IMG/VR virus record: IMGVR_UViG_3300042545_002007
Span: 1 to 53,384 of that record
DNA from: a virus
Length of the DNA stretch: 53,384 bases
Direction: 5' to 3' (one strand)
Shown piece after piece: positions 24,932 to 45,574 of this stretch; within the stretch, counting starts at the first letter, position 1, and each line of letters starts with the position of its first letter. Below the pieces are notes generated by a model, which was not told where the DNA came from, ran no database searches, and saw only the letters and a list, made by a program, of their open reading frames with translations. A program made the position numbers and the translations under genes.

Positions 24932-25006
24932 AGGGGTGAAGCATATCGATCATGCGCTCTGCTCATAACGGAAGGAAAGTGGGTTTGACTCCCATCGCCC
25001 CTACCA
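24932..25006 (+). tRNA. tRNA-Met or tRNA-Ile2 (CAT)
   Basis: A 75-nt type I tRNA. Acceptor AGGGGTG/CGCCCCT, D stem GCAT/ATGC, anticodon loop CTCATAA giving CAT, T arm GTGGG/CCCAT, A73 and encoded CCA. It begins with an A-U pair, unlike a bacterial initiator, so elongator Met or a lysidine-type Ile tRNA are the options. The 27-43 pair is a mismatch. Confidence 0.85.
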
Positions 25007-44041: not shown

Positions 44042-44563
44042 ATGATAAACTGTCCAGAATGTAATGTATTATTTAAACCCTTGAAAGATAGGAAGCACAA
44101 CAAGGCAAAGCATAATCAAAGATTCTGTAGCAAATCTTGCCGTATGAGGTATTTTAATAAAAATTTTCATATCAATAAAGGTTGCAAAAGAAATATAAGC
44201 TTTCCAGAGGATTATCTTCTCTTAAAAATAAAAGAAGTATTTCCCTCTTTGAATGTCATTCAGTCAGATAGGAAAACCTTACAATCTGGTCTTGAGATAG
44301 ATATTTGCATACCAGAAATATCTTTAGCGGTAGAAGTAAATGGACCAGTTCACTATTTCCCAATATTCGGAGAGAAGAAGCTTGAGGATGTAAAACTTAA
44401 AGATAGTATAAAATTTAGAGAGCTGTGTGATATGAACTATTCTTTTTTTATTATAAATGTCTCAGAAGTAAGCAGTAGAAAAAAACAAAAACAGATTATG
44501 GATGAAGCATTTGAAACTAAAATAGCACCCATAATAAAGAATAAAATTACGGAGAAGATTTAA
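44042..44563 (+). CDS. homing-type endonuclease with zinc finger and PD-(D/E)xK-like core
   Basis: A 173-residue protein. N-terminal Cys pairs ('CPECNVLF', 'FCSKSCRMRYF') form a zinc finger; the nuclease core 'SGLEIDICIPEISLAVEVNGPVHYF' (about residues 85-109) resembles the Vsr/PD-(D/E)xK domain of the gene at 25091. It is the only plus-strand gene in the minus-strand region and ends 5 nt from the tRNA-Pro 3' end, suggesting invasion of the tRNA/ncRNA locus. Confidence 0.75.
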   Translation: MINCPECNVLFKPLKDRKHNKAKHNQRFCSKSCRMRYFNKNFHINKGCKRNISFPEDYLLLKIKEVFPSLNVIQSDRKTLQSGLEIDICIPEISLAVEVNGPVHYFPIFGEKKLEDVKLKDSIKFRELCDMNYSFFIINVSEVSSRKKQKQIMDEAFETKIAPIIKNKITEKI

Positions 44564-44568
44564 GTCAA

Positions 44569-44641
44569 TCGAATAGGGAAGACTTGAACTTCCAATCCCT
44601 CCGCCCCAAACGGGGTGCCTTAGCCATTAGGCCACTATTCG
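44569..44641 (-). tRNA. tRNA-Pro (TGG)
   Basis: A 73-nt type I tRNA. Perfect acceptor CGAATAG/CTATTCG, D stem GCCT/AGGC, anticodon loop TTTGGGG giving TGG with G37, T stem GGAAG/CTTCC, A73. One C-A mismatch in the anticodon stem. No CCA encoded. Confidence 0.88.
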
Positions 44642-44650
44642 TTAAAAAAT

Positions 44651-44736
44651 TTGCGGGTGTTGGAATTGAACCAAACGTGTCTATATTAGACTACGGGATA
44701 TGAGCCCGTTGACTTTGACCTCTAGTCTAACCCGCA
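44651..44736 (-). tRNA. type II tRNA with CAT anticodon
   Basis: An 86-nt tRNA. Perfect acceptor TGCGGGT/ACCCGCA, D stem GACT/AGTC, perfect anticodon stem ACGGG/CCCGT with loop CTCATAT giving CAT, and a long variable arm GTCTA-ATA-TAGAC. A73, no CCA. A long variable arm is normal for Leu, Ser or Tyr but not for Met or Ile, so the charged amino acid is uncertain; A73 would suit LeuRS or TyrRS. Confidence 0.82.
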
Positions 44737-44744
44737 TATAAAAT

Positions 44745-45340
44745 TTACTGGTGTGCTTTTACGCCAAAGGGGTTACGAATTTCTTCGTCCTGTGAAACGC
44801 AATTCACGGTCATCTCCGCACCTATAAATAGGATGTATGGCTTATTTGAATTGTGTCCATACTAATTACCAGTTCTCCACGTCCAGTCCCACTCCTTAGA
44901 TGATAGCTGCCTCTAAGCTAACATTCCAGTTTTAGAATTATTACCAAGACTTCTTCTGAAGTTCCCTATGGGTTAAATGTTGTTTCCGGAAACATTGCAT
45001 TGTCGCCCATCGCGGTAGAGCTTTGCGAGCATCTGCGCTTGGTAAAAGAACACCCGCCAAAGTGTGCATCAACTTACTTAGTTGCCGTGTACTTTAGAAA
45101 CTACTCATTGCAAGTGAGAGGCATGGCGGGTCTACTAAAAATCTATTTGGCAAGCGGCTGCGATGCATACGAATGCACACGAAACGCCTTATTAAGCACC
45201 ACTCCTCTTTCGATTGCACAGGGATAGGTATTACTACTCTATCTACCAAACAAAAATAAAATGTCAAAAATCAATTTCCGATTTTGTTTTCGACCGAGTA
45301 AGCCCAGTCCCATTGGATCATCGGGAACCAACTACCTTAT
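44745..45340 (-). ncRNA. large structured phage RNA of about 600 nt, with a 23S GTPase-centre-like segment
   Basis: It begins just after a perfect promoter and runs into the two tRNAs, with no credible reading frame on either strand. Hairpins on the minus strand include ACGAA-GAAA-TTCGT (a GNRA loop), GTGAA/TTCAC, GTATGG/CCATAC, CCTA-TTTA-TAGG, ACTTC-AGAA-GAAGT, AATGTT/AACATT, TGCAT-TCGT-ATGCA, and a long-range CCCGCC/GGCGGG pairing. At 44893-44926 a 34-nt segment closely resembles E. coli 23S rRNA 1055-1088 (the A1067 loop). Size, structure and the tRNA neighbourhood recall giant phage RNAs such as ROOL and GOLLD. The family is not assigned. Confidence 0.75.
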
Positions 45341-45346
45341 AAAACT

Positions 45347-45375
45347 AATATAGTGTCTTTTTACACCATTGTCAA
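45347..45375 (-). promoter_or_regulatory. sigma70-type promoter for the ncRNA-tRNA unit
   Basis: TTGACA, 17 nt, TATATT. Initiation is expected near 45340. It is one of the best matches in the window. Confidence 0.88.
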
Positions 45376-45517
45376 TAAAAATTTCAAAATAAAAATTCAA
45401 AAAAAAGAAAAAAAATTTGGGCAAATAGCGGCCTAGGTGGCCGTAAATAATGCAAATAATGAGGGCGGGGATAGTTCTGCATACACTTATGGGTATATGT
45501 ATACGCATGCATAACAT

Positions 45518-45574
45518 GTTCAATACCAACCACTTACGGGCCGGAGGGGCCCCTAAACCGCTGGGGCTTAACGC
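45518..45574 (-). repeat. GC-palindrome intergenic element E9
   Basis: Minus orientation; core ACGGGCCGGAGGGGCCCCTA, shortened downstream arm. Confidence 0.7.

Follow-up and report, generated by a model that had tools for sequence, protein, structure and literature searches.

What kind of RNA is encoded at positions 44745-45340 of the virus record analysed here (the window, 53,384 bases at its full length), where a segment resembling the GTPase-associated centre (GAC) of 23S rRNA precedes tRNA genes? The initial annotation had proposed a structured phage RNA of about 600 nt that is started by a perfect promoter, runs into two tRNAs, and represents either one of the giant ROOL/GOLLD-type RNAs or a new family. 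The window probably comes from a large T4-like phage, to judge from PHROG matches to a rIIA lysis inhibitor and to clamp-loader and exonuclease proteins, and the stretch does lead into tRNA-Met and then tRNA-Pro on the same (minus) strand. None of the open reading frames of at least 40 amino acids in the ORF list overlaps positions 44747-44930, and no Pfam family was found in ten proteins encoded by neighbouring genes (eight from phages that carry the element described below, two from the window). A further tRNA of the window, at 24932-25003 on the plus strand, was recognized by Rfam (40.8 bits) and missed by ARAGORN.

The match to the GAC is real and unique in the window. Read on the minus strand, positions 44926-44893 are identical to E. 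coli 23S 1055-1088 at exactly 28 of 34 bases, as originally aligned by eye; no other diagonal holding a 34-mer with at least 26 matches to this 23S was found, either on the two strands of the window or in six Markov-shuffled windows searched on one strand each. Likewise correct were the observations that 1062-1076 is an A-U in place of a G-C pair, that is, a compensatory change, and that A1067 is kept. The second half of the centre, which had been thought not to be conserved, is in fact present: GGCGUAAAAGCACACCAG at 44765-44748 supplies H44 together with the 3' strand of H42, and is shifted away from the first half by an insert of ~120 nt. Since it is merely displaced by the insert, positions 44930-44747 (minus strand) form a complete GAC fold (Table 1).

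Table 1. Features of the locus (positions in the window; numbers such as 1057-1081 refer to E. coli 23S rRNA).
Feature	Position	Strand	Remarks
tRNA-Pro	44569..44641	-	ARAGORN and Rfam tRNA, 51.3 bits
tRNA-Met	44651..44736	-	Directly downstream of the element; ARAGORN and Rfam tRNA, 49.8 bits
Complete GAC-like RNA element (H42 outer stem, H43, junction, insert, H44)	44747..44930	-	Covariance model R1
H42 outer stem, 5' strand (1051-1055), ACUGG	44926..44930	-	Pairs with 44751-44747 CCAGU; covaries across the family
H43 hairpin with 1067 loop (1057-1081)	44900..44924	-	Within the 28/34 match; 1062-1076 is A-U
Junction CUAAGGAGU (1082-1090), tertiary pair 1082-1086 as C-G	44891..44899	-	Pair kept in 79/84 elements
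Insert after 1090: variable domain and UUU	44766..44890	-	Closing stem 44890-44888 with 44771-44769
GAC second half: extra G, then 1091-1104 (H44 hairpin, 1095 loop)	44751..44765	-	GGCGUAAAAGCACAC; R1 match
H42 outer stem, 3' strand, CCAGU	44747..44751	-	Pairs with 44930-44926
Promoter-like TTGACA-17-TATATT	45347..45375	-	11/12 consensus positions

The conserved unit is ~185 nt, not 600 nt, in length. For the full 609 nt, the folding energy resembles that of shuffled sequences (z +0.42), on which grounds a single structured RNA of 600 nt was rejected. The promoter described as perfect is one mismatch short of the consensus, and such sites are about as frequent in the region as expected by chance (7 found, 6.2 expected). 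An assignment to ROOL or GOLLD, both of which presumably have Rfam models, failed as well, given that no Rfam match to them was obtained for the whole window at gathering score or for 44560-45570 at E-values up to 10.

The family to which the element belongs was gathered with sequence patterns. A degenerate pattern for the H43 hairpin (1060-1077), run over viral sequences, retrieved at least 119 stretches, most of which share the wider consensus ~GGANGUUGGCUUAGAAGCAGCCAUCNUYUAARGAGU outside any rRNA and often right after a tRNA. A second block, ~YUUUGGCGUARNAGCACAC, lies 41-332 nt after the first and corresponds to the other half of the GAC; it is followed in turn by the complement of the sequence preceding the first block. 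A second scan of viral sequences with the second block alone (UUUG-1091-1104), using a regular expression that demanded most of 1091-1102 with A1101 included, yielded at least 120 stretches, 74 of them new; the counts from both main viral scans are lower bounds. Over all loci, the first block (with at most 4 mismatches) is found within 600 nt upstream of 145 of the 155 second-block occurrences, as against 0 of 488 control stretches, and the remaining 10 occurrences are either too close to an end (4) or over the mismatch limit (6). Bacterial and archaeal genome contigs (257 Gb) contain 35 stretches with the second block; the first block is present within 600 nt in 16 of them, and the covariance model described next adds L263 (67.3 bits) and L286 (42.5 bits). 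The contigs concerned, mostly metagenome assemblies from several phyla according to their titles, are read as putative prophages or phage contigs.

Covariance model R1 was built from 37 sequences, which hence match by construction, and with the window left out. It recognizes the window at 44944-44729 on the minus strand with 101.7 bits (E 6.7e-31), the next match in the window scoring 4.9 bits. At E ≤1e-5, R1 matches 107 of the 119 loci from the first scan (89/100 and 18/19) and all 74 new loci from the second; one locus, L021, is marginal (26.9 bits). Seven of the 12 misses overlap long reading frames (L022, L042, L046, L047, L066, L067, L090) and look like chance pattern matches, while the others comprise L072 (weak pieces only, long insert), L082 (same core as L072), L114 (aberrant), L009 and L105. 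R1 also recognizes E. coli 23S rRNA at its own GAC (46.5 bits, E 3.5e-12). Conversely, none of the 4227 Rfam families exceeds its threshold at the elements of the window and 30 loci (L278, one of the 30, holds no element). The new family considered in the initial annotation is the most likely assignment. The bacterial LSU model RF02541 (gathering score 50 bits) gives no more than sub-threshold matches at elements (31.4, 20.9, 26.7 and 21.8 bits) and none in the window; sub-threshold matches to bacterial or archaeal LSU rRNA coincide with the elements of L036, L080, L168, L170, L172 and L175. These matches and the recognition of the E. coli GAC by R1 are independent signs of kinship with 23S rRNA.

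The element is a member of a large family of phage RNAs present in many different phages. R1 matches all ten cultured phages examined (W01-W10), which had been chosen because of a GAC-like core match and one of which, Milchi, is also in the training set: Xanthomonas phages XacN1, XbC2 and XaC1, Pseudomonas phages pf16, UNO-G1W1 and Milchi, Aeromonas phage 4_4572, Cronobacter phage GAP32, Pectobacterium phage CBB and Serratia phage BF. In none of the ten is the element annotated as RNA; it occupies an empty gap in eight, and a small opposite-strand ORF is found there in Milchi and UNO-G1W1. A GAC-like core match is seen in further phage records, among them Erwinia phages and Astolliot.

In E. 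coli numbering, the family comprises H42 (1047-1055/1104-1112), H43 (1057-1081), the junction (1082-1090), the insert, mostly UUU, then a G and 1091-1104. Because the search patterns and a filter demanded particular letters, conservation at those positions holds by construction. The filter that defines a set of 84 elements, and likewise an alignment of 42 sequences, demanded A1084, A1085, G1087, A1088 and U1090 at the spacing of 23S; in the 27 of 111 insert-distinct elements outside the set of 84, either H43 ends in an additional insertion or the spacing differs. Compensatory variation in homologues, on which the initial annotation had made its reading depend, is present at four places. (i) For each of the nine outer-stem pairs 1047-1055/1104-1112, the observed pairing was reached in 0 of 1000 shuffles, both in the set of 84 and in 101 elements for which only one 3' half came into question, the latter test being restricted in this manner because the best outer stem had been chosen wherever several 3' halves were possible. 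(ii) At the base of H43, in pairs lying beyond the search patterns or on their margin, 1057-1081 is paired in 83, and 1058-1080 (with six pair types) and 1059-1079 in all 84 of the 84 elements. (iii) Positions 1082-1086, which we take to form a tertiary contact in 23S rRNA, are paired in 79 of the 84, with U-A, C-G and A-U as the main types, when compared with a mean of 49.8 after shuffling (0 of 1000 shuffles). (iv) The stem closing the insert is 90.5% paired in 42 elements, and both sides change at all four pairs.

The 42-sequence alignment gives a similar picture for pairs outside the patterns: 88.1% of the cells are paired, as against 38.6-53.4% with slid partners, and the covariation score is 0.897 as against 0.226, neither value being reached in 500 shuffles, while two weaker measures were equalled by 74 and 58 of 500 shuffles. 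An earlier count over all 26 pairs (91.6% of the cells) was inflated by five filter-fixed pairs, and the all-paired helices 3, 5 and 7 are uninformative. The junction motif AANGA[G/A]U, which is outside both patterns, follows H43 at the spacing of 23S in 84 of the 111 insert-distinct elements, and AANGAGU occurs elsewhere within 130 nt in 25 more (chance rate for AANGAGT: 86 of 2220 random 111-nt stretches); judging by eye, H43 appears to end in an additional insertion in most of these 25. Taken together, the unique 28/34 match, the pairing of the two blocks when compared with control stretches, the junction and the covariation led us to reject a chance resemblance to the GAC.

Other features of the GAC are kept to varying degrees. 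Position 1067 is A in 86% of the 84 elements and another letter in 14%, even though one search pattern demanded A, and positions 1096-1097 vary. The letters of U1060/A1088 and of 1071-1072 are present, but were demanded by the patterns or the filter, and two nucleotides at ~1071-1072 are missing in 12 loci; we take the U1060-A1088 contact and base triples between 1071-1072 and H44 to be features of the GAC in 23S rRNA. A1101 replaces U1101 across the elements, and this letter, demanded by the filter, is also found in L026, L096, L098 and L115, which failed the filter; opposite U1090, it would form a Watson-Crick pair beside the insert.

In none of the 84 elements is H44 continuous with the junction, each of them having an insert after 1090. 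The insert opens with a helix straight after U1090, stops immediately before UUU, and is 43-365 nt long in the 111 insert-distinct elements. Iterated nhmmer grouped 132 inserts into 69 clusters (28, 9, 8, 6, 4 ... members); the insert is hypervariable. Letters like CACCCCGUAAYUGGUAAGGC recur near the 3' end in many members of the largest cluster. A fold common to all inserts was not found, RNAalifold giving little beyond the core for the largest cluster (28), and a blastn search of the 132 inserts against the E. coli rRNA operon revealed no clear further rRNA piece (best E 0.015, taken as chance). The common insertion site suggests that the insert-bearing element arose once and then probably spread between phages.

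Twelve loci close to that of the window are informative about the two loops. The sequence GUUGGUUUAGAAAACCA occurs in 25 stretches, 13 of which are unrelated and 12 of which are the element (L134, L135, L142, L144, L149, L152, L294, L295, L297, L301, L306, L307). In all 12 the H43 loop lacks two nucleotides (~1071-1072) and, at the same time, the H44 hairpin is two nucleotides longer; an alignment of five of these variants with the window and L015 shows hardly any other change (mean column identity 92%). Absence of the rRNA-like segment in close relatives, which according to the initial annotation would refute its reading, is thus borne out in part: these loci keep the element, but both of its GAC loops are altered. 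That two hairpins distant in sequence change jointly is consistent with the docking of one on the other in the GAC. The change also makes strict mimicry of the factor-facing loops less likely, and shows that the 23S-like interface is dispensable in this lineage.

Among 107 viral insert-distinct elements flanked by 150 nt or more on both sides, 35 abut a tRNA gene (-12 to +30 nt), whereas random placement within these loci does so in 254 of 4813 cases. The spacing is often only a few nucleotides; in Pseudomonas phage pf16, the element occupies the gap between tRNA-Asn and tRNA-Pro. This test was preferred to counting tRNAs within 500 nt, for which the contrast is weak (46 of 93 elements, 609 of 1860 random placements). 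The initial proposal of a structured phage RNA that lies beside tRNAs and resembles the L11-binding centre is supported. A tRNA gene was detected in 68 of the 107 loci and none in 39, and the jumbo-phage copies have no annotated tRNA within 2 kb. In 34 carrier records, some of which are perhaps fragments, neither a uL11 gene (0/34; controls 14/14) nor a RelA/SpoT gene (0/34; controls 11/14) was found, so that any uL11 partner would be that of the host. Matches resembling the C-terminal domain (CTD) of bL12 exceed the Pfam cut-off in 6 of the 34 carriers (L052, L053, L077, L083, L170, L216) and in 10 of 14 controls; four of the six span only ~28 positions inside longer frames, and this rate, which comes without a baseline from non-carrier phages, was kept out of the evidence for an association.

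Other RNAs and repeats were seen near the elements. Upstream of the window's element, a hairpin resembling abiF RNA (RF03085; 45130-45052, minus strand) scores 29.8 bits (E 0.0043 in a 1-kb search), below the gathering score of 37. The 16-nt start of this hairpin is present in 39 viral loci (L128-L166), 28 of which close the hairpin with GGCGGG, in many cases followed by a T run in a terminator-like manner; an abiF RNA in a T4-like cyanophage has already been published (PMC9964418). A phage-borne tmRNA (L080:1861-2208, minus strand, 162.6 bits) lies near a GAC-like element and several tRNAs, and a match to YrlA (Y RNA-like; L093:5547-5646, minus strand) reaches 34.9 bits, with a gathering score of 69, near phage tRNAs. 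Positions 45512-45563 of the window hold a dispersed ~23-45-nt repeat centred on GGGCCGGAGGGGCCC, which recurs at least eight more times in the window (49637, 49158, 40289, 52530, 32802, 35175, 51685, 38986). In the record of Paenibacillus phage Pd_22F (L171), a genuine 23S segment, in which H43 is directly followed by GCGTAATAGCTCACTGG, is located at ~2001-2060 in a stretch without annotated features.

What might such an RNA do? Mutants of uL11 have stringent-response defects. The likeliest role, at about even odds, is that the element acts in trans as a stand-alone phage RNA with GAC fold, which binds host uL11 and draws it from the ribosomes or to the partner of the insert. The element would be transcribed, often together with the tRNAs; host ribosomal protein uL11 would bind the core, a copy of its own natural site; uL11, perhaps along with what docks on it, would be taken off the ribosomes or onto the insert's partner; and uL11-dependent events such as the stringent response might consequently be blunted, or translation be retuned, during infection, with the hypervariable insert serving as an effector or host-specific part. 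Both the binding of host uL11 by the core and the function are predictions. In isolation, the 58-nt GAC folds in the presence of Mg2+ and is able to bind L11 without the ribosome (PMC8373061, PMC10161774), and since neither step needs the ribosome, an RNA with the same core likely binds host uL11 as well. A narrower role as a bait specific for RelA by way of A1067 is weakened by PMC5829649, which reports that A1067 mutants still activate RelA in starved complexes, though to a lesser degree as vacant 70S. Counting against a uL11 mimic are that two thirds of the tested elements have no abutting tRNA gene, that 1067 is not A in 14% of the elements, that 12 loci have altered loops, and that an insert located within H44 could hinder uL11.

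The same features have to be weighed for other readings. A copy of a functional rRNA site, lying among phage tRNAs in a third of the cases and carrying an insert that varies fast, as in an arms race, might act as a bait, drawing a host defence enzyme or toxin by which the GAC of the ribosome is recognized or cut, with the insert tuning it to local defences. RNA decoys do exist in phages, phage TE escaping ToxIN by RNA-based mimicry (PMC3475682). Against such a bait, which we regard as unlikely, speaks the conservation of the whole GAC core, and not just of one loop; no defence system directed at H43/H44 turned up in searches made for other purposes. A core that is conserved, joined to a side domain that is closed and exchangeable, is also reminiscent of an adaptor, and the detached stalk base might, beyond titration, bring uL11 and/or translational GTPases to the partner of the insert. 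The bL12-CTD-like matches in six of the 34 carriers would be in line with this, but the missing non-carrier baseline weighs against their use and most inserts sit in small clusters of their own, so that such a recruitment platform appears doubtful to us. Abutment and a spacing of often a few nucleotides could, on the other hand, reflect a cis-acting element of tRNA operons that borrowed an rRNA fold for transcript processing, antitermination or stability. Such a role would leave the conservation of the GAC core unexplained and is at odds with the 39 loci at which no tRNA was detected and with the jumbo-phage copies, and we consider it more improbable still. That the elements are inert remnants or misassembled pieces of host 23S rRNA has a negligible probability: some phage records do contain genuine pieces of 23S (L171, and several annotated as 23S), but covariation, the single insertion site, presence between annotated genes of complete cultured genomes, and inserts that hold no other clear 23S piece speak against debris. 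Misassembled rRNA was thus rejected for the family and is true of single records such as L171.

If the capture of uL11 is nonetheless taken as the working model, a broader picture can be sketched, which we put forward tentatively and judge to be somewhat less probable than the model itself. Phages of several bacterial phyla might deploy a detached, fast-diversifying stalk base that captures host uL11, along with L12-dependent GTPases or the stringent machinery, and couples it to an effector domain in H44, as a general RNA device for takeover or anti-defence, often travelling with tRNA arrays. This would then be the first widespread viral RNA known to us that copies a functional centre of the ribosome, and could help to explain both the retention of tRNA arrays by large phages and their control of translation and the stringent response. 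Loop variants and exchangeable inserts represent natural experiments on folding and binding of the GAC, and the presence of the element in culturable phages makes the proposal testable at once.

To our knowledge, a viral, trans-placed and GAC-folded RNA family with a plug-in domain is of a new kind; none was found among the matches listed for the open-licence literature, an earlier description elsewhere being possible. With the GAC of 23S rRNA (H42-H44, E. coli 1051-1108, the uL11 site) the element shares the core secondary structure, the 1082-1086 pair and near-identical letters in H43, junction and H44. In contrast to the GAC, however, it is not part of an rRNA, has a 43-365-nt insert after 1090 and a freely varying outer stem, and exhibits an extra G before 1091 (mostly after UUU) as well as A1101 for U (demanded by the filter, yet also found in four loci that failed it). 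ROOL and GOLLD are phage-borne non-coding RNAs that are often located near tRNAs; when compared with them, the phage element is a far smaller unit with an rRNA-like core and has no Rfam match to either. Leader RNAs of the L10/L1 type imitate rRNA sites of ribosomal proteins and are cis regulators of ribosomal-protein operons. They likewise copy the site of a ribosomal protein outside the ribosome, whereas the phage element lies by tRNAs or between phage genes, in carrier records in which no uL11 gene was found (0/34). The available part of PMC12286853 also describes ROOL and GOLLD as phage-borne non-coding RNAs. The species 1 and 2 stable RNAs of phage T4, rnaC and rnaD, are likewise small stable RNAs in a phage tRNA cluster; a search of both with R1, filters off, found no GAC-like core (best 9.5 bits, outer stem only), and they were rejected as relatives. 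Phage-encoded ribosomal proteins such as bL12 (PMC6375957) are phage parts aimed at the ribosomal stalk, and differ in being proteins instead of RNA; that paper names uL11 as a stalk protein, and its main text has no word starting with L11. The ideas nearest to the one advanced here are the decoy of phage TE (PMC3475682) and the ribosomal-protein leaders that copy rRNA sites.
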